From: Antedon mediterranea
Taxonomy: Eukaryota; Echinodermata; Crinoidea; Comatulida; Antedonidae
Direction of reading: 5' to 3'
DNA: 64,000 bases
Assembly: GCF_964355755.1 (NCBI RefSeq)
Contig: NC_092678.1
Span: 24,594,365 to 24,658,364, forward strand
This document shows positions 26,001-59,654 of this stretch, one piece after another. Both the position numbers and the translations under genes were made by a program. The stretch's first letter is position 1; the number at the start of each line of letters is the position of its first letter. Under the pieces are notes generated by a model that was not told where the DNA came from, made no database searches, and saw nothing but the letters and a program-made list of their open reading frames with translations.

Positions 26001-29000
26001 GAAAGAAGTATTACTAGCAGCAATAGGTGAGCAGTTTGCAGACTGTTTTGCAAAAGGTAAAATATTTATCAGTTAATTCAAGATATTGCAAACGGTTAAG
26101 ACAGTGGAAATGTAAATACATCGTGTGGTTGTAGAACAAGTCATAGTTTCAGTGGAAAAAAACAAGTATTCTCCGGATACAGATTATTAACCGTAGGTCC
26201 AGTGTACGCACATCTAGCTTGTGCGCTTGAAAGTAGAGGGGGGTTACCCTTGTGTACTAGTACATCACAGCCACTGATCATAACTGGGCCCTCTGGGAGA
26301 CCAGTCTTTGACTGAAGAGGTCACCCAGTATAAATAAATAATAACAAACCAACCTACCACAGCCTGTAATTCTCAAGAATTTATTTAACTGACAGCTTAT
26401 CCCACAATTACCCATTTGCTATTGTTTAATTTGATAGGGGATGATATATGTGGAGTGAGTATCAGTAGAAGGGGTATGGAAGACGTTATTCAAATATGGA
26501 ATGCAAGTACTTTACTACATGAACAGTCCACAGTCATTGAGAAAATAATGAAACTATTACCAGATGTACAGTTTAAAACAGTATTTTATAAATGTAAGTT
26601 TCTGTATATTCAAGTTCACTATATTTATAAGCACTTTTCTCTTATGATGTTGACATAATGGCTGAGTGGGGTAATACAGGAGTACTGTACCACAGCCATA
26701 GTATCAGCAGCAAAGTACTAACAACCCTACCACCAATGAGATCACTTTGCAACCATGAGGGGACGACATAGAGAAAAGTCTGTCTGTGTCTAATAGACAC
26801 AATCCTGTCGCCCCTCCTAATAGACACAATCCTGTCGCCCCTCCTAATAGACACAATCCTGTCACCCCTCCTAATAGACACAATCCTGTCACCCCTCCTA
26901 ATAGACACAATCCTGTCACCCCTCCTAATAGACACAATCCTGTCACCCCTCCTAATAGACACAATCCTGTCACCCCTCCTAATAGACACAATCCTGTCAC
27001 CCCTCCTAATAGACACAATCCTGTCACCCCTCCTAATAGACACAATCCTGTCGCCCCTCCTAACAGACACAATCCTGTCACCCCTCCTATCAGACACAAT
27101 CCTGTCACCCCTCCTAATAGACACAATCCTGTCACCCCTCCTAACAGACACAATCCTGTCGCCCCTCCTAATAGACACAATCCTGTCACCCCTCCTAATA
27201 GACACAATCCTGTGGCCCCCTCCTAATAGACACAATCCTGTCGCCCCTCCTAATAGGCACAATCCTGTCGCCCCTCCTAACAGGCACAATCCTGTCGCCC
27301 CTCCTAACAGACACAATCCTGTCGCCCCCTCCTAATAGACACAATCCTGTCACCCCTCCTAATAGACACAATCCTGTCACCCCTCCTAATAGACACAATC
27401 CTGTCTCCCCTCCTAATAGACACAATCCTGTCGCCCCTCCTAATAGACACAATCCTGTCGCCCCTCCTAATAGACACAATCCTGTTGCCCCTCCTAATAG
27501 ACACAATCCTGTTGCCCCTCCTAATAGACACAATCCTGTCGCCCCTCCTAACAGACACAATCCTGTCGTCCCTCCTAACAGACACAATCCTGTCGCCCCT
27601 CCTAACAGACACAATCCTGTCGCCCCTCCTAACAGATACAATCCTGTCGTCCCTCCTAACAGACACAATCCTGTCGCCCCTCCTAACAGACACAATCCTG
27701 TCGCCCCTCCTAACAGACACAATCCTGTCGCCCCTCCTAACAGACACAATCCTGTCGCCCCTCCTAACAGACACAATCCTGTCGCCCCTCCTAACAGACA
27801 CAATCCTGTCGCCCCTCCTAATACACACAATCCTGTCACACCTCCTAATAGACACAATCCTGTCACCCCTCCTAATAGACACAATCCTGTCACCCCTCCT
27901 AATAGACACAATCCTGTCACCCCTCCTAATAGACACAATCCTGTCACCCCTCCTAATAGACACAATCCTGTCACCCCTCCTAATAGACACAATCCTGTCA
28001 CCCCTCCTAATAGACACAATCCTGTCACCCCTCCTAATAGACACAATCCTGTCGCCCCTCCTAACAGACACAATCCTGTCGCCCCTCCTATCAGACACAA
28101 TCCTGTCACCCTCCTAATAGACACAATCCTGTCACCCCTCCTAACAGACACAATCCTGTCGCCCCTCCTAATAGACACAATCCTGTCACCCCTCCTAATA
28201 GACACAATCCTGTGGCCCCCCTCCTAATAGGCACAATCCTGTCGCCCCTCCTAATAGGCACAATCCTGTCGCCCCTCCTAACAGGCACAATCCTGTCGCC
28301 CCTCCTAACAGACACAATCCTGTCGCCCCCTCCTAATAGACACAATCCTGTCACCCCTCCTAATAGACACAATCCTGTCACCCCTCCTAATAGACACAAT
28401 CCTGTCGCCCCTCCTAATAGACACAATCCTGTCGCCCCTCCTAATAGACACAATCCTGTCGCCGCTCCTAATAGACACAATCCTGTCGCCCCTCCTAATA
28501 GACACAATCCTGTCGCCCCTCCTAACAGACACAATCCTGTCGCCCCTCCTAACAGACACAATCCTGTCGCCCCTCCTAACAGACACAATCCTGTCGCCCC
28601 TCCTAACAGACACAATCCTGTCGCCCCTCCTAACAGACACAATCCTGTCGCCCCTCCTAACAGACACAATCCTGTCGCCCCTCCTAACAGACACAATCCT
28701 GTCGCCCCTCCTAACAGACACAATCCTGTCGCCCCTCCTAACAGACACAATCCTGTCGCCCCTCCTAACAGACACAATCCTGTCGCCCCTCCTAACAGAC
28801 ACAATCCTGTCGCACCTCCTAATAGACACAATCCTGTCACACCTCCTAATAGTCACAATCCTGTCACCCCTCCTAATAGTCACAATCCTGTCACCCCTCC
28901 TAATAGACACAATCCTGTCACCCCTCCTCATAGACACAATCCTGTCACCCCTCCTAATAGACACAATCCTGTCACCCCTCCTAATAGACACAATCCTGTC

Positions 29001-29919
29001 ACCCCTCCTAATAGACACAATCCTGTCACCCCTCCTAACAGACACAATCCTGTCACCCCTCCTAACAGACACAATCCTGTCACCCCTCCTAACAGACACA
29101 ATCCTGTCACCCCTCCTAATAGACACAATCACTGAACAACACAAGATCACATTTTACGTGTTCAATGGCACAAGTCCGTGGCCACTGAACAACACAAGAT
29201 CACATTTTACGTGTTCAATGGCACAAGTCCGTGGCCACTGAACAACACAAGATCACATTTTACGTGTTCAATGGCACAAGTCCGTGGCCACTGAACAACA
29301 CAAGATCACATTTTACGTGTTCAATGGCACAAGTCCGTGGCCACTGAACAACACAAGATCACATTTTACGTGTTCAATGGCACAAGTCCGTGGCCACTGA
29401 ACAACACAAGATCACATTTTACGTGTTCAATGGCACAAGTCCGTGGCCACTGAACAACACAAGATCACATTTTACGTGTTCAATGGCACAAGTCCGTGGC
29501 CACTGAACAACACAAGATCACATTTTACGTGTTCAATGGCACAAGTCCGTGGCCACTGAACAACACAAGATCACATATAAATCTAAAAATCCCTTTTACT
29601 GTATATTAAATTTAATATTATATCTTGTAAAATGTGTTATAATCTTGTGGGAGTTTGCTAAAATTATTAAAGAAGAGTTGTTTGAATTTTGTTTTTAATG
29701 TTGAAAATGTTTTTGCAGATGTTGTGATATTTACAATTGCGGTTCCATAACATTTTGCCATGTATTTTAATTGTGCCGCTATGTCGCAATAGAATGAAAA
29801 GAAAAGAAACTCTCTTTCTCACTTTAATATATTGATATTGTATAATAATTTTAATAATGATTTATATTTTCTCAGCTCATCAACAACACACAGCCTTTGA
29901 AGGAGGAGCCAAAAAGTGA
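23032..29919 (+). CDS. EIF4E3: Eukaryotic translation initiation factor 4E type 3 (class III cap-binding protein), seven exons
   Basis: Exons by splice sites and frame: 23032-23186, 23740-23812, 24832-24926, 25271-25331, 25990-26056, 26438-26593, 29876-29919 (stop TGA). All introns are GT-AG, and phases join cleanly into 216 residues, close to vertebrate eIF4E3. Order along the protein: acidic N-terminus; PLNTPWTFWVDR (W46 matches eIF4E Trp43); AAEYEAEL with Tyr62 at the eIF4E Trp56 cap-stacking position; FHTVEGFWKVFNNIP (W79, the eIF4G/4E-BP dorsal-site Trp73); RCSYHLMRG; KPIWEE (W108/E109, equivalent to Trp102/Glu103); VWKEVLLAAIGEQF; and the eIF4E3-type C-terminus HTAFEGG. Class III proteins bind the m7G cap atypically because Trp56 is replaced; mammals have Cys there. 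The protein acts in cytoplasmic cap recognition, possibly as a competitor of eIF4E. Intron 2 holds a 544-bp MITE, intron 4 a palindromic MITE, intron 5 a SINE, intron 6 two satellite arrays. Confidence 0.93.
24032..24575. mobile_element. 544-bp non-autonomous DNA element with long terminal inverted repeats, in eIF4E3 intron 2
   Basis: The left end reads ATACCCCTTTCACACCAAAA and the right end is its reverse complement, ending TTTTGGTGTGAAAGGGGTAT. Inside the ends come mirrored CTCCGGAGAC and ACCCCGG blocks, so the inverted repeats extend about 50 bp. Internal TCCGGA and CCCCGG motifs repeat several times on both sides, giving a subterminal repeat structure. No transposase frame. A partial relative lies at about 20242-20345. 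Confidence 0.8.
25811..25928. mobile_element. Palindromic MITE, partial copy, in eIF4E3 intron 4
   Basis: Carries ATGTGCCCATATATGGACAT, GATGATGTCATATCACTACC and a right end TGTAGACAGAGCTTTA. The segment CATATTTGGGCATATCACTAC is tandemly duplicated inside this copy. The left terminus is degraded. Confidence 0.75.
26165..26348 (-). mobile_element. SINE-like element in eIF4E3 intron 5
   Basis: Contains ACCGTAGGTCCAGTGTACGC, GGGGGGTTACCCTTGTGTAC and CTGGGAGACCAGTCTTTGAC, ending in a TAAATAAATAATAA tail. The first two blocks recur in reverse orientation at about 60471-60590 (ACACAGGGGTAACCCCCTAC and ACTGGACCTACGGTT), showing one dispersed family. The strand is uncertain because the A/T-rich tail and the shared core suggest opposite polarities. 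Confidence 0.55.
26792..29130. repeat. 27-bp minisatellite, about 86 copies, in eIF4E3 intron 6
   Basis: Units are AATAGACACAATCCTGTC followed by RCCCCTCCT, with few variants (AACAG/AATAG, TCACC/TCGCC). Blocks of variant units repeat at larger scale: the run marked by GTGGCCCC and AATAGGCACAATCC at about 27205-27340 reappears at about 28205-28340, a period near 1.0 kb. The strands are strongly pyrimidine/purine biased. The 27-bp period is divisible by three, so long frames open on both strands; they are not genes. Confidence 0.97.
29131..29576. repeat. 53-bp satellite, about 8.4 copies, in eIF4E3 intron 6
   Basis: Abuts the 27-bp array with no spacer. Each unit reads ACTGAACAACACAAGATCAC through TTCAATGGCACAAGTCCGTG and GCC. 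All copies appear identical by eye, indicating very recent expansion or strong homogenisation. Confidence 0.95.
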
Positions 29920-30272: not shown

Positions 30273-32611
30273 GTATACCTCCGTAGGTAAAGCAATGAAT
30301 GTTTGGACCAATGAAGTGGTAGTTTGTGATGTCTTGATTTTAAGGTGCTAATTTTAAACGCTGATGTGTTAGGGGTGGGCTTCTTTTATAGTGTTTCAGT
30401 GTGTTAAATGCTGACGGGTTAGAGAGGCTTCTTTTATAGTGTGTCAATTTTGTTAAAAGGGGTGGGTTAGGGGTGGGCTTCTTTTGTAGTGTTATGTGTG
30501 CTGCCATGTAGATTTTAAAATCATAGTTTTAAGTGATTTGCTTTGTATATTGAGAGTACTTACTTATTTATTGGTAAGCCTACTAAACACAGTTGCACCG
30601 TTGTTGCATTTTACCACTAGTTGTTACATGCCATGTGTGTTAATTCGTTAGTGGCGCCACAACACCAACCTGGTTCCTTGATGCCCAATGTAAAAATATG
30701 GTTGGTTGTGAGGTTATAGTATGACAATTTTAAGCGGTCTTTTTTCTTTGTTGACCGAGGTCCCCCTAAATTTGTTTAATTGAAATTAAAAAAATAGGAC
30801 ATAGGTTAAGTACAGAACTTAATTTAACCATTTAAACCCCTTTCCTTATATCACAATCTTGGATCCTCCACTGGTTATGTCAGATTACCATGTCTGGCCA
30901 AAAACAAAGACTTGTTCAGAACTTAAAATCTGTTAAAACACACATGTATTTTTTTACATTTATCATTCTTGAATCAACTTATTTAAGTATATTTTACAGT
31001 ATTGTATTAATTTTCATTTACTCTTTATATTTAATTATTTTGTTTCCCTTTTCAAATAAGTAATTGTGGACAATAACAAATTAACTAAATCAATTTAGTA
31101 GTTGAATTGAAAGAAATTAATTGTCATTTGCCTCCTATAGTAATTTTAGTATAAGGTGTTTAAGCAATAAATGATTCATATACACAGTATAGTTTATATT
31201 GAATTTAAAGACATTTCTGGTTACCATAAATGTAATGACTTAAGATGGGCTTACAATGATCACACTAATAACCTGGCAGTTATCCAGACCGTACAGAACC
31301 CTGCTGTGACAGATTTCATGTGAATCGTACCCCTTTTCCGTGATTAGTAGATCATGGCTTGGTACAAACGTTGTAGCTGTACCCTAGTAGTCGTCGAGCA
31401 TTAAACCATTACAAAACGCCGTCTTAATATTTTGTTGTGTGTGCCATTTTAGTGCGCAAATTTTAAACAATTTGTACAATTGAGGAAAAATCCGTTTTAA
31501 GGAGTATTTTTGTTTGCAGTAATTTTAGAGCTATGCAAAATGCTTGTGTAAATAGACACCTATCTAATAAAAATGTAATTGTAAATTTTATTGTACATTT
31601 AGAAAATTCATATTTTATGTGTAAATTAAGCTACTTAAATTTCGATCTTGCCTCTAATATACACCACTAAGTGTTAATTATTGTAAATAATTGTAGTTTC
31701 TCAACTCAACTATGTTTTATTTGTTTATTTAGGATTGGTTACTATACCATTAGAAGTAAAGTAAAAATGGGTTACTATTTAAGAGTATTTGGGAGTTTTG
31801 GCACACATCACATGTTGTTCCTTGGGGTCAATTTATCCTAAGTTAAGACATTTTCTCCTAAATTAAATGCATAAATACCTTATCCATAGAGTATTGCTCC
31901 CAATTATTACCTTGTATTGTATATCATGGTATTTAAACTCTATAGATTGAAAGATTTCAATGTTACAAAAGGTGCTGAATGAATACTGTACTGTATTAAG
32001 TTAGCCATTCAAACATCGTCTTATTCTTTGTTATTTCTTATCTAATTTACTTCTTGTACAAGACTGTAAACAAAGGGTAACATTTCAAAATTAAATTATA
32101 CATCAATACTTTTTAAATGTTTTTGAATTGTTGATCTGTTGTTTTTACCAATTGCGAGTTATCATGTTTCCCATAGAGATATCTGATAAAGCTAGAGGTG
32201 AATGTTAGGATTCTTGCGTGTATGTGCATCCGTCATGTGTATCTGTGCGTCCGTGCGTTGCCTCTTCAATCTTCACTTTCGTAAGTACCTGTAATCTAGG
32301 TGAAGGGAACCAATAGGTAAACATCATGTACCAAAGTCTACAATTGGCCAATAACAAAATATCACCTAGTTTACTCACCTTTTTGGCCCCTTTATTTGAA
32401 GGTCGAATGATAACACAAATATTATATTACAGATTACCTTTTGTACACTTGCTTGTACATACAGTACCACACCCCACTATAATAGTAACAGTTATTCTTT
32501 GAAACTTGAAAAAGCAAGAACAACTGGTAGAACAACTGGTAGAACACCGACGGTATCTGCTGCGATAGGCATCAACATTTGGAAGACTTAGAATCATTGT
32601 GCTGTTAAAAA
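30273..32611. other. Intergenic stretch: 3' flank of eIF4E3 and 5' flank of the sulfotransferase-like gene
   Basis: No gene recognised. At 30360-30500 the phrases GGGTGGGCTTCTTTTATAGTG and GGGTTAGAGAGGCTTC form two to three diverged repeats. The final 150 bp before 32612 (including GGTATCTGCTGCGATAG before GCATCAACATTTGG) could hold a 5' UTR and splice acceptor, but this cannot be decided. Confidence 0.4.
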
Positions 32612-33457
32612 ATGACTTCTGCTAAATCTTCTCCTCAGTCTGTGCGTGTCATCCTTTGGTCTGCACCTCGCTGTATGTCAACCGCTTTCACTCGATCCAT
32701 AATGACCTGTGAAGAAGCAGAAGTGTTCCATGAGAATTACGCCGCTGCCTATTTCTTGGGTCCTGAAAGATCTGACCGATTTGGCAAGTTGTCAACCAGT
32801 GTTTGTCTTTCACCGTATCATACTTATAACTATGTAAAGGCAATGCTACAAGAGAACATGTCTCCTGGCAAGCAATTTGTGTTTGTAAAGGACTTTCCAT
32901 TTGCCTTGCAAAAGATGTACGATAAGATACCAGAGGGCTTTGTGCATACGTTCCTCATTCGCAACCCAACAAAGGTGTTTATGTCTATACGAGAGAGATA
33001 CAACACTTGCTGGAGAAGACTTCGTTTTGGAACCGAAATACAAACGTACCAGCCCGAGTGCCACCTTTTCTTTGAAGAACTTTGGAAAGTATACAACCAT
33101 TTAAAAAATAATCTTAAGAAACCTGTTCTTGTTATTGATGTTGATGACTTCTTAAAAGATCCGGACGCCATGATGCAAGAGTATTGCCAGTTTACTGGCA
33201 TTCCGTTTAGAAGGTCAATGTTGTCATGGAAACAGCGCAGAATATTTGAAATGGATTGGACTTGTAGTAAGCCATTGAACTACCTGGCTTGGTGGTTTGG
33301 TTGGTATGATAACGCATTAAATAGTGACGGCTTCCACAAATCAAAAAGAAAAAGCACAATCCCAGACGTATCTATGCTGCCACCAGATATTAGACAAGTT
33401 GTTGAAGTTAGTGAACCGTATTACAACCTTCTATATAACGAAAGACTAACCATTTGA
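32612..33457 (+). CDS. PAPS-dependent sulfotransferase-like P-loop protein, 281 aa
   Basis: An intact single-exon frame. Near the N-terminus, VILWSAPRCMSTAFTRSI (residues 13-30) has the form of the sulfotransferase 5'-phosphosulfate-binding loop. LIRNPTKVFMSIRERY (115-128 region) matches the 3'-phosphate-binding motif with Arg117 and Ser125. FVKDFPFALQ (89-100) and the later VIDVDDFLKDPDAMMQEYCQ and GIPF blocks complete the usual fold order. Homologues in animals and plants are often mislabelled 'branched-chain amino-acid aminotransferase-like' because of fused plant proteins; that is recalled, not seen. It has no signal peptide, so it is probably cytosolic. The acceptor substrate is unknown. 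The ATG at 32612 (MTSAKSS) leaves 12 residues before the first strand, suitable for the family. No disruption seen. Confidence 0.82.
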   Translation: MTSAKSSPQSVRVILWSAPRCMSTAFTRSIMTCEEAEVFHENYAAAYFLGPERSDRFGKLSTSVCLSPYHTYNYVKAMLQENMSPGKQFVFVKDFPFALQKMYDKIPEGFVHTFLIRNPTKVFMSIRERYNTCWRRLRFGTEIQTYQPECHLFFEELWKVYNHLKNNLKKPVLVIDVDDFLKDPDAMMQEYCQFTGIPFRRSMLSWKQRRIFEMDWTCSKPLNYLAWWFGWYDNALNSDGFHKSKRKSTIPDVSMLPPDIRQVVEVSEPYYNLLYNERLTI

Positions 33458-33740
33458 AAACATGCAGAACAAGAATGTAACGCATCATCAGTGACATTAT
33501 ACGCACTTCTTTCGTCTCTTAGCGATATCATTACTAATGATTATGCCCATATATTCCATTAAACAGTAAAAACAATATCGGCCGAAGCACACAAAATTAA
33601 AACAAACATTAGTAACAAGAAAGAAGAACCAGTTAATTAATAATGTTAATGGATTAATGAAGTATTGATTAAATGTGCAAATTAATAAGCCAAGTTGAGT
33701 GTTGTTAGTAATGAACTAATTTGCCATATTATATGTATAT

Positions 33741-34055
33741 TATACAAATAATGAATGTTTATGAGTGCAATGGTACAAATAATGGCACGAGGTAAATGAT
33801 GAAAGGTTATATCAACGAGGCAAAGCCGAGTTGATATAACCTTTCATCATTCACCAAGTGCCATTATTTGTACCATTACACGAATACAAAACATTCATTA
33901 TTTGTTTTATATAACATCTAGACGTTTTTTTTTCGTACACAAAAATGTTTCAAAAAGTACTATTTAACGATCGTTGAATAGTGCGTACTATTGCACGCCA
34001 TGTGACCCACATTCGTCCAATCAAATGACAGGAATTTATATAGGTGTTATATAAA
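33741..34055. mobile_element. 315-bp foldback element, copy 1
   Basis: The first about 170 bp is a hairpin: CAAATAATGAATGTTT and ATGGTACAAATAATGGCAC on the left pair with GTGCCATTATTTGTACCAT and AAACATTCATTATTTG on the right, around the apex GAGGCAAAGCCGAGTTGATATAACC. A conserved unpaired 3' part follows (ACGATCGTTGAATAGTGCG, CCATGTGACCCACATTCGTC). The copy at 37304-37618 is the same length with only a few differences. No coding capacity. Confidence 0.85.
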
Positions 34056-34639
34056 ATGTGTTATCCTATAGAGTCGTAGTATAATAATATAATGGGTGAA
34101 TTTTAACCATGTTGTCATATAATTTTGTCTGCACATATTACGTACCCCTACGCACGGGCAAGCGGTAATCGTAAGAAGTGACAGTGAACTTTTTGTTGTA
34201 TGTGATCGGGCGCGATGTTATTAGTACAATGGTGGGTAGACTTGTAAATATAGTTGATTTGCGAATGATGCCGATTGTTACAAAGAGAGGATACCGCGTC
34301 GTAAGTGCGCGCGCGCGTATGGTAATTTTAATAAATCCGTACAAAGGGACACCGACAAGCAACTGCGTACTTATCACTAGTAACTACTGTACACGTTTCG
34401 GGTGGTCCCTGTAAGTTGTCTTCGACGCAAGTTGTACCCTGATATTGAATATTGAGTTTGAAGGAAGAATTTTTAGTAGACCTAAGAATCTGTTGTCCTC
34501 CTCTGAATAATGTATTGTGACGCGCGTAGTGATTGTTTGATGATGAATGATGCATATTGTTACAAAGGGTACCGCCCCATAACTATTGTTATTAGTAATA
34601 AATTAAATAAATAAACCGACAGACAAGTAATGTACAGCC

Positions 34640-36090: not shown

Positions 36091-37303
36091 GTATGTTTTA
36101 GTCATGTTTATGCAAGCCAGCATTCTTCCAAAAAGTTCCAAACTTAGTATTGACTTCTTTTTGTCCGTTAATCCTTCTTTGTTCAGTTTAATAATATAAA
36201 ATATTTCTTATATTGTTTGAAAGTTTTATGGTGATAATAATAAATACTGTATATCGAACACAAAAGCATTCCGTACACACCGTATGCCTAATGGCTGTTT
36301 TGCTAAGTACCGCTTTTTTTTACTATTATTCAATGTCAGTGGCACATTGTGTCGATACAAAAATACATAAGACACAGCGTGTCTCATGCGAACCGATTTT
36401 GTCTTTTATTCACTAACAAATTTAGGCAACGACCCCCACCGCAGCTCATATTCACAGCTCACTGGATGTCAACCCATTGCTATATTATGTATTTTCATTT
36501 TGCGTTATGATCGTATCGTGTCGCCAAGAACAAACAGTCGAAATTCTTAGATCTTAGAATAATTTCATGAAATGTTTGTTTGCTTCTTTGTTTTTAATGA
36601 ATAGTAAATCACATCATATCGTGATCGGAGAAACACCATTTAGTAGAAAAAGAATGATAATGACGATGGTTTTGATTCATCACGAATGTTTTTCTTGATA
36701 TTAGTTTGTTCCTTCCCTTCCCGGATTGAAATAAATAATCAGAGTTGCGTAAACAATCCGAATACAATATACCCCTATTCGGAAGACACCCTTATTTTGG
36801 AGACACCCATATTTTTGGGAAATACTCCTATTCAGGGCAATTGTAGAACAAGAACGAGATACACTTTTTTTAGTCCCAAAGTGTCCAGGGTTGTCAGTAA
36901 AAACATTTGACTTGGATGTGTGGATGGTTGTTAGTGAGGTGACGCATCCACAATTTAATATAGTTTATTATATATTACATCACGACCGGCCAAATAATGG
37001 TTGTCGTCCATCCGCACTCTCACGCCTATTTACACATTTAAATGTATTCAATACTTTAAGAAGAAGAGTAGTGTGTAAAACGTAGCAACATAATATCTAT
37101 ACTTATAGTGTATTTCCTACCGCACGTGGATATTCAAGAATACCGCGTCGGGTTTGATCATCGATGAACACGTGACAACAATGACAACAAAACATGGAAT
37201 ATTATTAAACAAGTACGTCTTCGATAACATACTTAAACCATGAAATCTCGTGAACCTAATAATGTTTTAAACGTAAGACATTGTTGTTTACAACAGTGAT
37301 TAT
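36091..37303. other. Presumed intron or intergenic DNA after the CLCA exon
   Basis: No further CLCA exon recognised. At 36765-36835 short phrases of the type CCCTATTCGGA and GGAGACACCCATATTT repeat loosely. Nothing else identified. Confidence 0.35.
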
Positions 37304-37618
37304 TATACAAATAATGAATGTTTATGAGTGCAATGGTACAAATAATGGCACGAGGTGAATGATGAAAGGTTATATCAACGAGGCAAAGCCGAGTTGATAT
37401 AACCTTTCATCATTCACCAAGTGCCATTATTTGTACCATTACACGAATACAAAACATTCATTATTTGTTTTATATAACATCTAGACGTTTTTTTTTCGTA
37501 CACAAAAATGTTTCAAAAAGTACTATTTAACGATCGTTGAATAGTGCGTACTATTGCACACCATGTGACCCACATTCGTCCAATCAAATGACAGGAATTT
37601 ATATAGGTGTTATATAAA
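37304..37618. mobile_element. 315-bp foldback element, copy 2
   Basis: Near-identical to 33741-34055 with no length change; visible differences include GAGGTGAATG versus GAGGTAAATG, and GCACACC versus GCACGCC. Different flanks on both sides point to two independent insertions rather than a segmental duplication. Confidence 0.85.
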
Positions 37619-38691
37619 TGCTTTTATGAAAGCCTAGTAGTAAGCTAGGCATATACTATGACTTTTGAGGCACAAAGCTCAAACTACAAATAGGTAGCCT
37701 GGTGCGCTACGAAACGCATGCTATGAACCAGGGAAGAGTGATTTCCCTGCTATGAACACTAGCCGATGCCTTTTGTTATGAACTCATTATCTATTAAATA
37801 TACTCTGAACAGGGTCTACTTTGTACATTCATTTAAAATATCATTTGGTTAAACTTGGGGAATGAGTATTATTGACATTCCTTTCCATAATAAAAATACT
37901 ATTTGTTTTTTCAAACAAATAAATTAATAAATAAAAATAATAACGAAAGCCAGCATGATAATTAAGAGATTGCCGTGGGATTGTCATTATTAGGCACCTC
38001 TTCTCTCCCCCTCGCTCTTGGAAAAATTATTGGACACATACTGAATGTGATGAGTAGTAATGGATAACATTGGCCTACAAAATGGCTGTTCGTTAAAAAC
38101 ACTGTCGTTTATCAACACGCACACACACCTTGCAAACAAAAATGCCGCACAATTAAAATAGTTGCATATATTAGCGAAGGATCCAATGAAATCGCGAACA
38201 ATTCAGTTTTTGAATAGCTGCGTGACGTGCACCTGTACTTCATTCACCGGTCTACTGTAGCGGAACGGGTTTTGCAGTGTGGGTAAGTAACAGAACATCA
38301 TTTTGTACATTTTGATGAATTATATTAATCTAAATAGTCCACTTTTTAATTTTAATAGTCTATATTCACTCTCTGAATCGAATTAAGAATATATTGAAGC
38401 CTCTAACCACCTCTATTACTAATAGTAGGCTACACTTCCAGTAGCTAGGCATATTGCTTGTTTTGGAATTCACTCTGTTTGGTCGCCCGTCTTCGTCGGC
38501 GGTTATCGTTGACATGTAAGGGCCTAAGCCAAGGACACGTTTCCCAATACAATTCCAGTTATTTGATATCTTATTATAAAAGTTGTATATTGAATGAAAT
38601 GGTGGACAATTTAGACGCCATTTTGACCACCATTTAATCCAAGAGGCGAATAATTATCAATTTCCGGTCATCGTACCAAAATGGGGAGAAT
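37619..38691. other. Non-coding stretch
   Basis: No gene or repeat family recognised. GCAGTGTGGGTAAGT at about 38274-38288 resembles a splice donor and could mark a non-coding first exon, but there is no supporting coding sequence. Confidence 0.35.
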
Positions 38692-45734: not shown

Positions 45735-45910
45735 TCGACGCCTGTCCGATTAAAATCGCGCGCTCCCATCATCACCAAGTCCATCTCGTCAGGTACCAGC
45801 ACAGCTCTCGAACCACCAACCACTACAGCAAACCTACGTACGTCTGACTCTCCGAGCCACATAAGAACTTACTGGAAGTCTAAGTTAAGTTGTACCCGAT
45901 AAACATAAGC
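45735..45910 (-). repeat. Diverged copy of the tRNA-like block at 54640-54775
   Basis: CACCAAGTCCATCTCGTC, AGCACAGCTCTCGAACCACC, CATAAGAACTTACTGGAAGT and AAGCATCAATCG recur in order in both places. On the minus strand the block has a tRNA-like layout: box A-like TGTGGCTCGGAG and box B-like GGTTCGAGAGC. Confidence 0.6.
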
Positions 45911-45926
45911 ATCAATCGTTACTGAA

Positions 45927-47439: not shown

Positions 47440-50400
47440 GTAAATTCGTGCAGGCAACTTAATTACATTGTAGAGTAGAGGGAACTGAATTGGTATGTGT
47501 TTGTACTTCACAGGCAATTAACTATTATTATTATAATTATTGTTGGTCACATTGAGGCTAGCAGTGTGAATTTCATGTAGACGGGGCCCTATTATTAATT
47601 CGTACACGTAGTGTTACGGGTATTAGTACAGCTTAATTGGTATATAGGTAGCTTAATTGGTAAACGTTGTCTTTATTAGTACATGAGCTAACTTGGTAAA
47701 ACCAACTTTATTAGTACAAGCTTTATTAGTACAGCTTATCTGATATAGGAGCTTAATTTGTACGGGTAGCTCAATTGAGTTCAGGTAACTTTATTAGTAC
47801 AGGAGTTTTGGTACAGGTACCTTCATTGGGCACAAACAATTTTATTAGTACAGGATCTTAATTGAGTTCAGGCAACTTTATTAGTACAGGAGCTTTATTG
47901 GTACAGGTACCTTCATTGGGTACACTCAACTTTATTGGTACAGGAGCTTTGGTACAGGCACCTTTATTGGGTACAAGCAACTTTATTAGTAAAGGATCTT
48001 AATTGAGTTCAGGCAACTTTATTAGTACAGTAGCTTTATTGGTACACGCAACAAATTACGATATTATCATTAACGTTTGGTCTCAGGTACCTTCGTTGAG
48101 TACAAGCAGCGTTTTTAGTACAGCTAATTGGTGGTAGTAGTACTGCAGGTTTTATCCCTAATTCGTACACGTCGTGATCATACAGTTGAATTTGTACAGG
48201 GGCTTCATTGGTATAGGTACTCATTGGGTACACTCAACTTGATTGGTACATGAGCTTTGGTACAGGTACCTTCATTGGGTACAAGCAACTTTATTAGTAC
48301 AGGGGCTTTGGTACAGGTACCTTCGTTGGGTACAAGCAACTTTATTAGTACAGGAGCTTTATTGGTAACAGGTACCTTTATTGGGTACAAGCAACTTTAT
48401 TACTACAGGAGCTTAATTGAATTTAGGCAACTTTATTAGTACAGGAGCTTTGGTACAGGCACCATCATTGGGTACAACTAACTGTATTAGTACAGGAGCT
48501 TTGGTACAGGTATCTCCATTGGTTACAAGCAACTTTATTAGTACAGGATCTTAATTGAGTACACAGGCAACTTTATTAGTACAGGAGCTTTGGTACAGGT
48601 ACCTTCGTTGGGTACAAGCAACGTTATTAGTACAGGAGCTTTGGTACAAGCACCTTCATTGGGTACAACCAACTGTATTACTGTAGTACATGAGCTCTGG
48701 TACATGTATCTCCATTGGGTACAAGCAATTTTATTAGTACAGGATCTTAATTGAGTTTAGGCAACTTTATTAGTACAGGAGCTTTGGTACAGGTACCTTC
48801 GTTGGGTACAAGCAACTTTATTAGTACAGGAGCTTTGGTACAGGTACCTTCATTGGGTACACGCAACTTTATTCGTACAGGAGCTTTGGTACAGGTACCT
48901 TCGTTGAGTACAAGCAACGTATTTTAGTACAGCTTAATTGGTGGTAGTAGTACTGCAGGTTTCATCCGTAATTCGTACACGTCGTGATCATACAGTTGAA
49001 TTTGTACAGGGGCTCCATTGGTATAGGTACCCATTGGGTACACTCAACTTTATTGGTACATGAGCTTTGGTGCAGGCACCTTCATTGGTAACAACCAACT
49101 GTATTAGTACATGAGCTTTGGTACAGGTACCTTCGTTGGGTACACGCAACTTTATTAGTACAGGAGCTTTGGTACAGGTACCTTCGTTGAGTACAAGCAA
49201 CTTTATTAGTACAAGAGCTTAATTGAGTTTAGCAACTTTATTAGTACAGGAGCTTTAATGGTACAGGTACCTTCATTGGGTACACGCAACTTTATTAGTA
49301 CAGGAGCTTTGGTACGGGTACCTTCGTTGGGTACAACCAACTGTATTAGTACAGGAGCTCTGGTATAGGTATCTCCATTGGGTACAAGCAGCTTTATTAG
49401 TACAGGATCTTAATTGAGTACAGGCAACTTTGTTAGTACAGGAGCTTTGGTACAGGTACCTTCGTTGGGTACACGCAACTTTATTAGTACAGAAGCTTTA
49501 TTGGTACAAGTACCTTCGTTGGGTACACGCAACTTTATTAGTACAGGGGCTTTGGTACAGGTACCTTCGTTGGGTACAAGCAACTTTATTAGTACAGGAG
49601 CTTTATTGGTAACAGGTACCTTTATTGGGTACACGCATCTCTATTAGTACAGGAGCTTTGGTACAGGTACCTTCGTTGAGTACAAGCAACTTTATTACTA
49701 CAGGAGCTTAATTGAGTTTAGGCAACTTTATTAGTACAGGAGCTTTGGTACAGGCTCCATCATTGGGTACAACTAACTGTATTAGTACAGGAGCTTTGGT
49801 ACAGGTATCTCCATTGGGTACAAGCAGCTTTATTAGTACAGGATCTTAATTGAGTACACAGGCAACTTTATTAGTACAGGAGCTTTGGTACAGGTACCTT
49901 CATTGGGTACAAGCAACGTTATTAGTACAGGAGCTTTGGTACAAGCACCTTCATTGGGTACAACCAACTGTATTACTGTAGTACATGAGCTCTGGTACAG
50001 GTATCTCCATTGGGTACAAGCAGCTTTATTAGTACATGATCTTAATTGAGTTTAGACAACTTTATTAGTACAGGAGCTTTGGTACAGGTACCTTCGTTGG
50101 GTACACGCAACTTTATTAGTACAGGAGCTTTGGTACAGGTACCTTCATAGGGTACACGCAACTTTATTCGTACAGAAGCTTTGGTACAGGTACCTTCGTT
50201 GAGTACAAGCAACGTTTTTTAGTACAGCTTAATTGGTGGTAGTAGTACTGCAGGTTTCATCCGTAATTCGTACACGTCGTGATCATACAGTTGAATTTGT
50301 ACAGGGGCTCTATTGGTATAGGTACCCATTGGGTACACTCAACTTTATTGGTACATGAGCTTTGGTGCAGGCACCTTCATTGGTAACAACCAACTGTATT

Positions 50401-53121
50401 AGTACAAGAGCTCTGGTACAGGTATCTCCATTGGGTACAAGCAATTTTATTAGTACAGGATCTTAATTGAGTTTAGGCAACTTTATTAGTACAGGAGCTT
50501 TGGTACAGGTACCTTCGTTGGGTACACGCAACTTTATTAGTACAGGAGCTTTGGTACAGGTACCTTCATTGGGTACACGCAACTTTATTAGTACAAGAGC
50601 TTTGGTACAGGTACCTTCGTTGGGTACAACCAACTGTATTAGTACAGGAGCTCTGGTATAGGTATCTCAATTGGGTACAAGCAGCTTTATTAGTACAGGA
50701 TCTTAATTGAGTACACGCAACTTTATTAGTACAGGAGCTTTGGTACAGGTACCTTCGTTGGGTACAAGCAACGTATTTTAGTACAGCTTAATTGGTGGTA
50801 GTAGTACTGCAGGTTTCATCCGTAATTCGTACACGTCGTGATCATACAGTTGAATTTGTACAGGGGCTCCATTGGTATAGGTACCCATTGGGTACACTCA
50901 ACTTTATTGGTACATGAGCTTTGGTGCAGGCACCTTCATTGGTAACAACCAACTGTATTAGTACATGAGCTTTGGTACAGGTACCTTCGTTGGGTACACG
51001 CAACTTTATTAGTACAGGAGCTTTGGTACAGGTACCTTCGTTGAGTACAAGCAACTTTATTAGTACAAGAGCTTAATTGAGTTTAGCAACTTTATTAGTA
51101 CAGGAGCTTTATTGGTACAGGTACCTTCATTGGGTACACGCAACATTATTAGTACAGGAGCTTTGGTACGGGTACCTTCGTTGGGTACAACCAACTGTAT
51201 TAGTACAGGAGCTCTGGTATAGGTATCTCCATTGGGTACAAGCAGCTTTATTAGTACAGGATCTTAATTGAGTACAGGCAACTTTGTTAGTACAGGAGCT
51301 TTGGTACAGGTACCTTCGTTGGGTACACGCAACTTTATTAGTACAGAAGCTTTATTGGTACAAGTACCTTCGTTGGGTACACGCAACTTTATTCGTACAG
51401 GGGCTTTGGTACAGGTACCTTCGTTGGGTACAAGCAACTTTATTAGTACAGGAGCTTTATTGGTAACAGGTACCTTTATTGGGTACACGCAACTCTATTA
51501 GTACAGGAGCTTTGGTACAGGTACCTTCGTTGAGTACAAGCAACTTTATTACTACAGGAGCTTAATTGAGTTTAGGCAACTTTATTAGTACAGGAGCTTT
51601 GGTACAGGCTCCATCATTGGGTACAACTAACTGTATTAGTACAGGAGCTTTGGTACAGGCACCATCATTGGGTACAACTAACTGTATTAGTACAGGAGCT
51701 CTGGTATAGGTATCTCCATTGGGTACAAGCAGCTTTATTAGTACAGGATCTTAATTGAGTACACAGGCAACTTTATTAGTACAGGAGCTTTGGTACAGGT
51801 ACCTTCGTTGGGTACAAGCAACGTTATTAGTACAGGAGCTTTGGTACAAGCACCTTCATTGGGTACAACCAACTGTATTACTGTAGTACATGAGCTCTGG
51901 TACAGGTATCTCCATTGGGTACAAGCAGCTTTATTAGTACATGATCTTAATTGAGTTTAGACAACTTTATTAGTACAGGAGCTTTGGTACAGGTACCTTC
52001 GTTGGGTACACGCAACTTTATTAGTACAGGAGCTTTGGTACAGGTACCTTCATAGGGTACACGCAACTTTATTCGTACAGAAGCTTTGGTACAGGTACCT
52101 TCGTTGAGTACAAGCAACGTTTTTTAGTACAGCTTAATTGGTGGTAGTAGTACTGCAGGTTTCATCCGTAATTCGTACACGTCGTGATCATACAGTTGAA
52201 TCTGTACAGGGGCTCCATTGGTATAGGTACCCATTGGGTACACTCAACTTTATTGGTACATGAGCTTTGGTGCAGGCACCTTCATTGGTAACAACCAACT
52301 GTATTAGTACAAGAGCTCTGGTACAGGTATCTCCATTGGGTACAAGCAATTTTATTAGTACAGGATCTTAATTGAGTTTAGGCAACTTTATTAGTACAGG
52401 AGCTTTGGTACAGGTACCTTCGTTGGGTACACGCAACTTTATTAGTACAGGAGCTTTGGTACAGGTACCTTCATTGGGTACACGCAACTTTATTAGTACA
52501 GGAGCTTTGGTACAGGTACCTTCGTTGGGTACAACCAACTGTATTAGTACAGGAGCTCTGGTATAGGTATCTCAATTGGGTACAAGCAGCTTTATTAGTA
52601 CAGGATCTTAATTGAGTACACGCAACTTTATTAGTACAGGAGCTTTGGTACAGGTACCTTCGTTGGGTACAACCAACTGTATTAGTACAGGAGCTCTGGT
52701 ATAGGTATCTCAATTGGGTACAAGCAGCTTTATTAGTACAGGATCTTAATTGAGTACAGGCAACTTTGTTAGTACAGGAGCTTTGGTACTTTGAATTACA
52801 TATACAGTACCCTATTAATAATTCGCACACGCATACTTTTATACAGGTTTATAGGGTACAGGCAACTTTATTAGGACGGTACAGGTGCTACTTTAGTTGG
52901 GCAACTTAACTATTATTAATATCATTATTGTTTTGTGACATTGTGGCTCTAGCTGTGTCTGAGAATGTAAATAGGGCTTTATTAATAATTCGTTCACGCA
53001 TTTATACAGGTTTATATGGTACAGGCAACTTTATTAGCTTACTTAGTAGTTGTAAGGGCAACTTAAATATTATTAATCATTTTTATTTTGTGAAATTGTG
53101 GCTCTTAGCTGTGAGAATGCC

Positions 53122-53919: not shown

Positions 53920-54131
53920 TAAACCGCCGTTTTTCTGTGTTTTACCACTTATATGTCGTTCCAAATCGTATATATTCCGTGTTTTACCATTTTCTCATTT
54001 TAAAAACACGTCAGTCCAAACCGCCTATTTTCCGTGTTTTACCATTTACATGTCGGTCCAAACCGCTAATTTTCCATGTTTTACCAAAAAGAGATGGTAA
54101 AACATGGAAAATTTGCGGTTTGGACCGACAT
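53920..54131. repeat. About 50-bp tandem repeat ending in a long hairpin
   Basis: Units of the form GTCAGTCCAAACCGCC, TTTTCCGTGTTTTACCATTT repeat about four times from 53920. The last unit is followed by its own inverted copy: ATGTCGGTCCAAACCGC at 54050 pairs with GCGGTTTGGACCGACAT ending at 54131, and CATGTTTTACCA pairs with TGGTAAAACATG around AAAAGAGA. The stem is about 37 bp. Confidence 0.85.
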
Positions 54132-54198
54132 TTTTAAAAATTTTTGATTTTTGACCGAAGGTTTAACACTTCGAAAATTTTTTTTTTCTTTCAGGTTG

Positions 54199-54300
54199 AT
54201 TTTTGGCTTAACGTGCTACACTACCGGCTGTGGATCTAGAGATCGCGGGATCGATTCCCGCTATGGGCAAAAAAAAAAAAAAAAAAAAATTAAAAAAAAA
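54199..54300 (+). repeat. tRNA-like element followed by a poly-A tract
   Basis: TTTTGGCTTAACGTGCTACA (box A-like) and GCGGGATCGATTCCCGC (box B with a perfect 5-bp T stem GCGGG/CCCGC) are followed within a few bases by about 20 A residues and further A-rich sequence. This looks like a retroposed tRNA-type transcript or a SINE head. A full cloverleaf could not be drawn by hand. Confidence 0.55.
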
Positions 54301-54394
54301 AATTTTAAATTTAAATAAAATTATTTTCTCCGCATCTTCTCCCATCTCGCCTCCGCTTATCCTCCACTCTCCTCCACCACTATCCATTTCCTTG

Positions 54395-54640
54395 TCCGTT
54401 TCCGATGCGTATCCGATGCCTGTCCGTATCCGATGCCTGTCCGTATCCGATTGCCTGTCCGTATCCGTTTTCCTGTCCATTTTCGATGCCTGTCCGAATC
54501 CGATGCCTGTCCGATTGCCTGTCCGTATCTGATTGCCTGTCCGTATCCGATTGCCTGTCCGTATCCGATTGCCTGTCCGTATCGATTGCCTGTCCGAGTC
54601 ATTTCCAACCATCTCCAAGTGTATCTCCAGGTCCATCTCC
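54395..54640. repeat. 18-bp minisatellite
   Basis: About ten units of GATTGCCTGTCCGTATCC and shortened variants (GATGCCTGTCCGTATCC, 17 bp) are followed by looser GTCCATCTCCAAGTCTATCTC repeats. It lies between two inward-facing tRNA-like elements. Confidence 0.9.
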
Positions 54641-54775
54641 AAGTCTATCTCGTCCAGCACAGCTCTCGAACCACCGACCACATCAGTCATACGTCTGCCC
54701 CTCTGAGCTACCTAGGAACTTACTGAAAGTGTACGTTAATTTGTACGCCATAAACTTATAAAAGCATCAATCGAA
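54640..54775 (-). repeat. tRNA-like element, minus strand
   Basis: On the minus strand the order is CCTAGGTAGCTCAGAGGGGC (box A-like TAGCTCAGAGG) and GGTGGTTCGAGAGCTGTGC (box B-like GGTTCGAGAGC), with typical spacing. It faces the plus-strand element at 54199. Copy of the block at 45735-45910. Confidence 0.55.
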
Positions 54776-54820
54776 AGACGAAGGTTCTTATTTTTTTTTT
54801 TTTTAAGTTAATATGTTCAC

Positions 54821-54893
54821 TTGTGTAGCGCAGCGGTTAGTGCTACTGTATAGTGATTGGAGGGTCACTGGTTCGAGTCCCAGTGATACCGCA
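54821..54893 (+). repeat. tRNA-like element, plus strand
   Basis: Box A-like TAGCGCAGCGG (54826-54836) and box B GGTTCGAGTCC (54870-54880); the D stem GCGC/GTGC can pair and CACTGG/CCAGTG flank the T loop. The anticodon stem does not form well, so this is probably a pseudo-tRNA or SINE head. Preceded by a T-rich run shared with the element at 55130. Confidence 0.55.
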
Positions 54894-54939
54894 CTATTTA
54901 CTTTTGTTTTTTGCAAATTGAATTCAATTTATATAAAAA

Positions 54940-55075
54940 AATTGCACTTGGATTTGAACCCTCGCCAAAGCACACATGTTCAGATCCAATCACACTAGCA
55001 CTCACCAACATGCTACTTGAGGATTTGATGACCAACTAAAGATTCTAAAATACTTTATATTTTGTACATTTTAAT
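54940..55075 (-). repeat. Diverged tRNA-like unit, minus strand
   Basis: TTGGATTTGAACCC (box B on the minus strand) and CAACATGCTACTTGAGGATTT (box A on the minus strand), ending GATTCTAAAATACTTTATA. It aligns in order with the units of the 55203-58404 array and faces the plus-strand element at 54821. Confidence 0.6.
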
Positions 55076-55123
55076 TAATACAAAGGTTCTTAATTTTTTT
55101 TTTTTTAATAGTCTATATGTTAA

Positions 55124-55195
55124 CTTGTGTGGCGCAACGGATAGTGCCATAGTCTAAGGACTAAAGGGTTGCTGGTTCGAACCCCAGAATTGTTA
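55124..55195 (+). repeat. tRNA-like element, plus strand
   Basis: Box A TGGCGCAACGG (55130-55140), box B GGTTCGAACCC (55174-55184), possible anticodon-arm hairpin TAGTC-TAAG-GACTA, D-stem GGC/GCC. It shares its T-rich upstream tract with 54821 and lies directly in front of the minus-strand array. Confidence 0.55.
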
Positions 55196-55202
55196 TATTT
55201 TT

Positions 55203-58200
55203 AATTGAGTTCAATTCAATATAATAAAAATGTATCTGGTTTGATTCGAACCCCTTCTAAACGGGCAAAGGTTTAGATCAAAGTGCAGTAGTCTTAACCA
55301 CCTGAGCCACTTGGGATTTCGATGGATCGCCGCAAATTCTAAGATACTTTATACATTGTAATTGACACAATTTATATATAAATTTAAATGTACCTGGTTG
55401 GATTCGAACCCCTTCTAAACGGGCAAAAGTTTAGATCCAAGTGCAGTGATCTTAACCACCTGAGCCACTTGGGATTTCGATGGATCGCCGCAAATTTTAG
55501 GATACTTTATACATTGTAATTGACTCAATTTATATATAAATTTAAATGTACCCGGTTGGATTCGAACCCCTTCTAAACGGGCAAAAGTTTAGATCCAAGT
55601 GCAGTGGTTTTAACCACCTGAGCCACTTGGGATTTCGATGGATCGCCGCAAATTCTAAGATACTTTATACATTGTAATTGACACAATTTATATATAAATT
55701 TAAATGTACCTGGTTGGATTCGAACCCCTTCTAAACGGGAAAAAGTTTAGATCCATGTGCAGTGATCTTAACCACCTGAGCCACTTGGGATTTCGATGGA
55801 TCGCCGCAAATTCTAAGATACTTTATACATTGTAATTGACTCAATTTATATATAAATTTAAATGTACCCGGTTGGATTCGAACCCCTTCTAAACGGGCAA
55901 AAGTTTAGATCCAAGTGCAGTGATCTTAACCACCTGAGCCACTTGAGATTTCGATGGATCGCCGCAAATTCTAAGATACTTTATACATTGTAATTGACAC
56001 AATTTATATATAAATTTAAATGTACCTGGTTGGATTCGAACCTCTTCTAAACGGGCAAAGGTTTAGATCCAAGTGCAGTGGTCTTAACCACCTGAGCCAC
56101 TTGGGATTTCGATGGATCGCCGCAAATTCTAAGATACTTTATACCTTGTAATTGTCTAAATTTATATATAATTAACCAACTGTACCTGGTTGGATTCGAA
56201 CCCCTTCTAAACAGGTAAAGGTTTAGATCCAAGTGCAGAGTCCGAGTGCAGTGGTCTTAACCACCTGAGCCACTTGGGATTTCGATGGATCGCCGCAAAT
56301 TTTAAGATACTTTATACATTGTAATTGACTCAATTTATATATAAATTTAAATGTACCTGGTTGGATTCGAACCTTTTCTAAACGGGCAAAGGATTAGATC
56401 CAAGTGCAGTGGTCTTAACCACCTGAGCTACTTGAGATTTCGATGGATCGCCGCAAATTCTAAGATACTTTATACATTGTAATTGACACAATTTATATAT
56501 AAATTTAAATGTACCTGGTTGGATTGGAACCTCTTCTAAACGGGCAAAGGTTTAGATCCAAGTGCAGTGGTCTTAACCACCTGAGCCACTTGGGATTTCG
56601 ATGGATCGCCGCAAATTCTAAGATACTTTATACATTGCAATTGACACAATTTATATATAAATTAAATGTAACTGGTTGGATTCGAACCCCTTCTAAACGG
56701 GAAAAAGTTTAGATCCAAGTGCAGTGATCTTAACCACCTGAACCACTTGGGATTTCGATGGATCGCCGCAAATTCTAAGATACTTTATACCTTGTAATTG
56801 TCTAAATTTATATATAATTAACCAACTGTACCTGGTTGGATTCGAACCCCTTCTAAACAGGTAAAGGGGTAGATCCAAGTGCAGAGTCCGAGTGCAGTGG
56901 TCTTAACCACCTGAGCCACTTGGGATTTCGATGGATCGCCGCAAATTCTAAGATACTTTATACATTGTAATTGTCTAAATTTATATATAATTAAACAACT
57001 GTACATGATTGGATTCGAACCCCTGCTAAACGGGTAAAGGTTTAGATCCAAGTGCAGTGATCTTAACCACCTGAGCCACTTGGGATTTCGATGGATCGCC
57101 GCAAATTTTAAGATACTTTATACATTGTAATTGACTCAATTTATATATAAATTTAAATGTACCCGGTTGGATTCGAACCCCTTCTAAACGGGCAAAAGTT
57201 TAGATCCAAGTGCAGTGATCTTAACCACCTGAGCCACTTGGGATTTCGATGGATCGCCGCAAATTTTAAGATACTTTATACATTGTAATTGACTCAATTT
57301 ATATATAAATTTAAATGTACCTGGTTGGATTCGAACCTTTTCTAAACGGGCAAAGGATTAGATCCAAGTGCAGTGGTCTTAACCACCTGAGCTACTTGAG
57401 ATTTCGATGGATCGCCGCAAATTCTAAGATACTTTATACATTGTAATTGACACAATTTATATATAAATTTAAATGTTCCTGGTTGGCTTTGAACCCGTTC
57501 TAAACAGGTAAAGGTTTAGATCCAAGTGCAGAGTCCAAGTGCAGTGGTCTTAACCACCTGAGCCACTTGGGATTTCGATGGATCACCGCAAATTCTAAAA
57601 TACTTAATACCTTGTAATTGTCTAAATTAATATATAATTAAACAACTGTACCTGGTTGGATTCGAACCCCTTCTAAACGGGCAAAGGTTTAGATCCAAGT
57701 ACAGTGGTCTTAACCACCTGAGCCACTTGGGATTTCGATGGATCGCCGCAAATTCTAAGATACTTTATACCTTGTAATTGGCTAAATTTATATATAATTA
57801 AACAACTGTACCTGGTTGGATTCGAACCCCTTCTAAACGGGCAAAGGTTAGATCCAAGTGCAGTGGTCTTAACCACCTGAGCCACTTGGGATTTCGATGG
57901 ATCGCCGCAAATTCTAAGATACTTTATACCTTGTAATTGTCTAAATTTATATATAATTAACCAACTGTACCTGGTTGGATTTGAACCCCATCTAAACGGG
58001 CAAAGGTTTAGATCCAAGTGCAGTGGATGGTCTTAACCACCTGAGCCACTTGGGATTTCGATGGATCGCCGCCAATTCTAAGATACTTTATACCTTGTAA
58101 TTGTCTAAATTTATATATAATTAACCAACTGTACCTGGTTGGATTCGAACCCCTTCTAACTTCTAAGCAGGTAAAGGTTTAAATCCAAGTGCAGAGTCCG

Positions 58201-58404
58201 AGTGCAGTGATCTTAACCACCTGAGCCACTTGGGATTTCGATGGATCGCCGCAATTCCAAGATACTTTATACCTTGTAGTTGTCTAAATTTATATATAAT
58301 TAACCAACTGTACCTGATTGGATTCGAACCCCTGCTAAACGGGTAAAGGTTTAGATCCAAGTGCAGTGGTCTTAACCACCTGAGCCACTTGGGATTTCGA
58401 TGGA
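55203..58404 (-). repeat. Tandem array of about 20 tRNA-like units (about 158-172 bp each), minus strand
   Basis: Read on the minus strand, each unit has AAGTGGCTCAGGTGGTTAAG (box A TGGCTCAGGTGG), ACTGCACTTGGATCTAAAC, a CCCGTTTAGAAGG segment like a long variable arm, and GGGGTTCGAATCC (box B), then an AT-rich spacer with TTTATATATAA. The plus-strand marker GATTTCGATGGATCGCCGC recurs about every 158-172 bp from 55315 to 58230, with a last copy cut at 58404. Units differ by a few per cent; some contain a 12-bp insertion (CAGAGTCCGAGT) or a changed box B. T-stem pairing is poor beyond two pairs, so mature tRNA is unlikely, but the RNA polymerase III promoter boxes are well kept. Confidence 0.85.
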
Positions 58405-58406
58405 CT

Positions 58407-59654
58407 CATCAGGTAGCGCACGTCCAACATCAGGTAGCGCACGTCCAACATCAGGTAGCGCACGTCCAACATCAGGTAGTGCACGTCCAACATCAGGTAG
58501 CGCACGTCCAATATCAGGTAGCTCACGTCCAATATCAGGTAGCGCACGTCCAATATCAGGTAGCGCACGTCCAACATCAGGTAGCGCACGTCCAACATCA
58601 GGTAGCGCACGTCCAACATCAGGTAGCGCACGTCCAACATCAGGTAGCGCACGTCCAACATCAGGTAGCGCACGTCCAACATCAGGTAGTGCACGTCCAA
58701 CATCAGGTAGCGCACGTCCAATATCAGGTAGCTCACGTCCAATATCAGGTAGCGCACGTCCAATATCAGGTAGCGCACGTCCAACATCAGGTAGCGCACG
58801 TCCAACATCAGGTAGCGCACGTCCAACATCAGGTAGCGCACGTCCAACATCAGGTAGCGCACGTCCAACATCAGGTAGCGCACGTCCAACATCCGGTAGC
58901 GCACGTCCAACATCAGGTAGCGCACGTCCAACATCAGGTAGCGCACGTCCAACATCAGGTAGCGCACGTCCAACATCAGGTAGCGCACGTCCAACATCAG
59001 GTAGCGCACGTCCAACATCAGGTAGCGCACGTCCAATATCAGGTAGCTCACGTCCAATATCAGGTAGCGCACGTCCAATATCAGGTAGCGCACGTCCAAC
59101 ATCAGGTAGCGCACGTCCAACATCAGGTAGCGCACGTCCAACATCAGGTAGCGCACGTCCAACATCAGGTAGCGCACGTCCAACATCAGGTAGCGCACGT
59201 CCAACATCAGGTAGTGCACGTCCAACATCAGGTAGCGCACGTCCAATATCAGGTAGCTCACGTCCAATATCAGGTAGCGCACGTCCAATATCAGGTAGCG
59301 CACGTCCAACATCAGGTAGCGCACGTCCAACATCAGGTAGCGCACGTCCAACATCAGGTAGCGCACGTCCAACATCAGGTAGCGCACGTCCAACATCAGG
59401 TAGCGCACGTCCAACATCCGGTAGCGCACGTCCAACATCAGGTAGCGCACGTCCAACATCAGGTAGCGCACGTCCAACATCAGGTAGCGCACGTCCAACA
59501 TCAGGTAGCGCACGTCCAACATCAGGTAGCGCACGTCCAACATCAGGTAGCGCACGTCCAACATCCGGTAGCGCACGTCCAACATCAGGTAGCGCACGTC
59601 CAACATCAGGTAGCGCACGTCCAACATCAGGTAGCGCACGTCCAACATCAGGTA
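58407..59654. repeat. 21-bp minisatellite B, about 59 copies
   Basis: Units of CATCAGGTAGCGCACGTCCAA (core GGTAGCGCACGTCCAA, shared with minisatellite A), very homogeneous. Variant units marked by GGTAGCTCACG occur at about 58521, 58731, 59046 and 59256, i.e. 210, 315 and 210 bp apart, showing higher-order blocks of 10 and 15 units. It abuts the tRNA-like array without spacer. Frames through it on both strands are artefacts of the 21-bp period. Confidence 0.97.

Follow-up and report, generated by a model that had tools for sequence, protein, structure and literature searches.

The window analysed here is a 64,000-nucleotide stretch of the genome of the crinoid Antedon mediterranea (C9:24,594,365-24,658,364; genome of 354 Mb in 18 contigs). 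It carries two likely genes, a rhodopsin-family GPCR on the minus strand at 16,849-18,039 (Pfam 7tm_1, E=1e-35) and a sulfotransferase on the plus strand at 32,609-33,457 (Pfam Sulfotransfer_5, E=2e-11), as well as a 27-bp minisatellite at 26,790-29,130 (86.6 copies, 96% matches) in which several reading frames are open. A repeat of ~320 bp, found at 33,736-34,060 and 37,301-37,620, has dozens of copies with 97-100% identity, spread over almost every chromosome, and contains an internal inverted segment (85%); it is probably a small mobile element that was recently active. The block from 37,863 to 60,446 has no long open reading frames outside tandem repeats and is apparently non-coding. Within it, a complex nested array with the motif TTATTAGTACAGGAGC and periods of ~19, 36, 51, 87, 138, and 436 bp occupies 47,700-52,900, and the tRNA-like cluster follows. 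The features of the block are as follows:

37,863-60,446, no strand: satellite-rich duplicated block of about 22 kb, present at approximately six C9 loci
45,770-45,918, minus strand: another copy of the m1 segment (76% identity), lacking a plus-strand partner
53,997-54,134, no strand: foldback of 42-bp subrepeats adjoining the tRNA-like cluster, with arms of ~40 bp in the window
54,204-54,278, plus strand: tRNA-like element p1, with box A TGGCTTAAC at 54,204 and box B-like GGATCGATTCC at 54,248
54,650-54,717, minus strand: tRNA-like element m1, with box A at 54,700-54,710 and box B at 54,662-54,672
54,783-55,086, no strand: pair 2, the ancestral plus/minus unit of ~304 bp, with a T14 tract at its start
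54,819-54,895, plus strand: tRNA-like element p2, class I and Lys/Arg-like, with intact box A (at 54,826) and box B (at 54,870) and TTTTGTTTTTT on its 3' side
54,940-55,022, minus strand: tRNA-like element m2, class II and Ser-like, with box B at 54,950-54,960 and T7 directly 3'
55,087-55,365, no strand: pair 3, the second copy of the plus/minus unit, whose minus half doubles as the array's first unit
55,123-55,197, plus strand: tRNA-like element p3, Arg-like, with box A at 55,130 and box B at 55,174
55,202-58,404, minus strand: array of 19.8 units of 158 bp (TRF), with a class-II tRNA-like segment in every unit
58,407-59,654, no strand: 21-bp minisatellite abutting the array (TRF)

A scan of the window for combined A and B boxes returned 36 matches at 54.1-58.5 kb vs 4 in the remaining ~60 kb, and upstream of the array, at 54.20-55.20 kb, are tRNA-like elements, three on the plus strand and two on the minus strand. 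Together with TRF and the recurrence of the elements at six paralogous loci, this confirms the plus-strand elements, their minus-strand partners, and the minus-strand array of ~20 copies that a sequence-only reading of the region had described. The spacing from box A to box B is 44 nt in p1, p2, and p3, as in most real class-I tRNAs of this genome. An A21 tract directly follows p1, and no TTTT terminator was found downstream of m1. Pair 2 is 92-96% identical to its counterparts at five other C9 loci and matches pair 3 in 185 of 275 aligned columns (67%), with similarity in both the plus heads (z=19.4) and the minus heads (z=10.0), so the plus/minus unit was duplicated once and its minus half alone was then amplified. 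Homology of pair 1 to pairs 2 and 3 was not detected (z<=3.1); alignment gave only poly-A/T and chance matches, and pair 1 appears to resemble the others in nothing beyond its tRNA-likeness. The earlier proposal of a single ancestral unit behind all pairs hence stands for pairs 2 and 3 and is not confirmed for pair 1, while amplification of only the minus half is borne out for the unit of the pair 2/3 type, at 19.8 copies.

By sequence similarity, the array unit is nearest to class-II tRNAs (tRNA-Ser(GCT), z=9.2; Leu(TAA), z=7.7), and so is m2 (Ser-GCT, z=7.7), while p2 and p3 are nearest to Lys and Arg tRNAs with z about 8. ARAGORN called no tRNA among the tRNA-like elements and array units, the Rfam tRNA model gave no match to the elements even at E<=10, and their predicted folds depart from the cloverleaf, so that the poor cloverleaf pairing noted earlier is upheld. 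Lacking an intact cloverleaf with anticodon, the array was rejected as a set of functional tRNA genes, and its terminators speak against this as well: boxes A and B are mostly intact in the array units and the terminator is mostly lost, with TTTT within 60 nt in 13 of 97 units (missing in the other 84) vs 73 of 80 real tRNA genes sampled. T-runs do occur within ~25 nt after p2, p3, m2, and the first array unit, so the pairs may give rise to convergent Pol III transcripts; transcription of the array, if any, would mostly read through the missing terminators.

The arrangement as a whole is ancestral and is collinear at six C9 loci, namely the window and 1.21, 2.89, 4.69, 5.27, and 23.6 Mb, and one fragment of it lies at 3.25 Mb. 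Copies of the block are found near both ends of C9 and in both orientations; on the left, the two copies examined begin matching at 37,863 and 38,020, and the right edges vary among copies. The arms of the foldback measure ~135 bp at four other loci; in the window, as in the 23.6-Mb copy, they are cut to ~40 bp. Matches to Rfam miRNA families at 54,047-54,134 scored far below the gathering thresholds, reflect the palindrome, and were dismissed. Pattern searches of the whole genome with four element types, allowing up to 3 mismatches, recovered 103 array units (100 of 100 on C9 among the matches listed) and found p1 and m1 six times each, exclusively on C9; withheld parts of the assembly may harbour additional copies. 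For plus heads there were 13 matches on C9 and another two, weak ones with 3 mismatches, elsewhere. One weak 3-mismatch plus-head match, at C3:38955785-38955808, is ~650 bp away from the contig end. Beyond the C9 block, these searches found no dispersed single copies of the tRNA-like types except the two weak matches, and no free-standing or independent plus/minus pairs were found genome-wide outside the duplicated block. This confinement argues against the tRNA-like types being a dispersed SINE and equally against a mobile element that ends in tRNA-like sequences, and the restriction of the block to a single chromosome is the oddest feature of the case.

The arrays hold 11-22 full units per locus, and unit identity is 95.0% within loci vs 94.4% between loci. 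At four loci the array ends with a break at approximately unit position 57-60. These unit identities and the common break suggest that the array was mostly amplified, and joined to the 21-bp minisatellite, before the block was duplicated. For 69 of 99 units the nearest neighbour belongs to their own array, and 16 pairs of units match exactly, which shows homogenisation within arrays and indicates that unequal exchange went on locally after the block had been duplicated.

We found little to support the view that boxes A and B are specially well kept against the decay of the cloverleaf. Across 99 full C9 units the mean rate of non-consensus bases is 1.7% in box A, 1.2% in box B, 2.0% in the spacer, and 4.6% in the remaining tRNA-like part, and any comparison of boxes with flanks is biased toward apparent conservation because the elements were recognised by these very boxes. 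In a block test on the array units, 6.8% of block pairs were conserved as much as the boxes (~0.07). With the six copies of the pair region aligned, variation falls on 9 of 110 box positions (8.2%) vs 46 of 316 spacer positions (14.6%; Fisher p=0.10). Consensus box B is retained in 93 of the 97 array units that have box A, and the differences between p2 and p3 inside the boxes sit at degenerate consensus positions; p3 itself has lost consensus box B by mutation in 3 of 6 copies. The tRNA core at 54.6-55.2 kb shows a substitution divergence of 2.5% to the 23.6-Mb copy and of ~5% to the 1.2-Mb copy, much as unique sequence does at 45-46 kb and at 53 kb. Elsewhere, larger divergences are mostly confined to tandem repeats, whose copies misalign, and an apparent signal of selective constraint over 53.8-55.2 kb vanished once gaps and this misalignment were removed. 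The somewhat lower variability of the boxes in both data sets (p=0.09-0.10 in the six-copy alignment) would fit selection that is weak or lies in the past. Given the non-significant box tests, a core that diverges like its neighbours, and the loss of box B in half of the p3 copies, selection would favour boxes A and B no more than weakly.

It seems likely that the array is a decayed tandem satellite derived from a class-II (Ser/Leu-like) tRNA and spread by intrachromosomal duplication, and its units indeed lie head to tail in tandem with a tRNA-derived segment in each. The starting point would have been a convergent tRNA-derived pair, class I on the plus strand and class II on the minus strand, and a tandem duplication would have doubled this unit of ~300 bp. 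Only its minus half, 158 bp long, would then have been amplified to roughly 10-20 copies inside the satellite-rich block, which was presumably copied later to six sites of the same chromosome, with array length drifting separately at every site afterwards. As mechanisms we infer unequal exchange for the amplification and segmental duplication for the copying of the block. The youth and homogenisation of the array are probably the main reason why boxes A and B persist, and the array itself would have no function. The locus thereby resolves the history of a tRNA-derived satellite—a convergent pair, amplification of one half, loss of terminators, and duplication of the block on one chromosome—and cautions that intact A and B boxes in a homogenised array are no proof of selection.

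Other origins can be weighed against this decayed satellite. Each pair could be what remains of an ancient minus-strand tRNA-SINE, with the minus element as head, a body holding the inverted plus segment, and an A-tail now read as the T14 tract, so that the array would be a SINE-derived satellite. Pairs 2 and 3 do read as tRNA head, body, and A-tract on the minus strand, the A21 tract after p1 fits as well, and the SINE-derived satellites of squamates with units of 67-215 nt are a precedent (PMC10702118). We nonetheless regard this origin as unlikely and set it aside, as the four pattern searches (<=3 mismatches) found no dispersed copies, the two weak matches aside, and by eye no clean target-site duplication was seen. 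The sequence-only reading had also proposed an element bounded by inverted tRNA-like ends, and the pairs do face inward in a block that occupies six dispersed sites in both orientations. Such an element is nevertheless barely credible, since every copy is on one chromosome, the homologous stretch exceeds 20 kb with unequal right edges, the pairs are internal to it, and the block has no long non-repeat ORFs; nor did the genome yield the independent paired copies that this idea called for.

A functional reading, in which the array is retained as a TFIIIC-binding (ETC/insulator-like) or Pol III-transcribed noncoding locus with a dispensable cloverleaf, would have the kept boxes recruit TFIIIC or yield long read-through transcripts. 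The many intact boxes, their slightly lower variability, and the T-runs at the upstream elements and first array unit would all suit this, and tRNA tandem repeats are able to serve as boundary elements (PMC4041453). It remains improbable in our view, as the box constraint is non-significant, the core diverges as adjacent unique DNA does, most units have no terminator, and box B of p3 is so often mutated. tRNA genes act as insulators. By analogy, the six C9 blocks with their box A/B array and foldback might serve as chromosome-specific TFIIIC-binding boundary or chromatin sites, a speculation to which we give very little credence.

As a decayed satellite, the array fits into an already known class of tandem repeats with tRNA-derived segments that includes newt PolIII/TAN (Hirt), Xenopus OAX, and the SINE-derived satellites of squamates (PMC10702118). 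Like the C9 array, the two amphibian families are tandem satellites with a tRNA-derived segment for which no matching dispersed SINE is established. The newt unit is ~360 nt long and transcribed in vitro (PMC10702118), whereas the C9 unit measures 158 bp; unlike these families, the C9 array has mostly lost its terminator and counts only ~100 units genome-wide, on one chromosome. The squamate satellites share with it units of ~70-215 nt that include the tRNA-derived promoter region (PMC10702118), a modest amplification, and a probably subtelomeric location, but their parent SINE is abundant, whereas no dispersed parent of the C9 array was found. Functional tRNA tandem repeats such as the human 1q23.3 tRNA VNTR (PMC4041453) and the tRNA arrays of Entamoeba (PMC2652664) are likewise tandem and tRNA-containing with variable copy number, but the tRNA genes they hold are functional and their units far larger; that of the human VNTR measures 7.3 kb and binds CTCF. 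Opposed tRNA genes have been suggested as a possible source of small RNAs in a survey of eukaryotic tRNA genes (PMC2888827).

The same genome also contains intact head-to-tail arrays of tRNA genes, mostly of a single isoacceptor and in a single orientation with units of ~138-290 bp, so tandem amplification of tRNAs is routine here. These arrays resemble the C9 array in having head-to-tail units with one tRNA or tRNA-like segment each, but have intact cloverleaves and mostly T-run terminators, both of which the 158-bp array lacks. Since such large intact one-isoacceptor arrays share a genome with the decayed one, young and old states can be compared directly. The tRNA-Lys(TTT) array on C8 spans ~90 kb at 23.58-23.67 Mb in 175-bp units (L024-L053); an upstream TCTNAGAAT motif shared by its units and those of C9 proved not to be general among the other tRNA families sampled. 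Further arrays comprise Ser(GCT) at C10:14.37-14.39 Mb (L062), Leu and Gly on C7 (L063, L064, L066, L069), iMet at C1:37.16 Mb (L065), Asp at C11:19.44 Mb (L067), Cys at C2:14.18 Mb (L058, L059), and Lys(CTT) at C3:8.10 Mb (L060).
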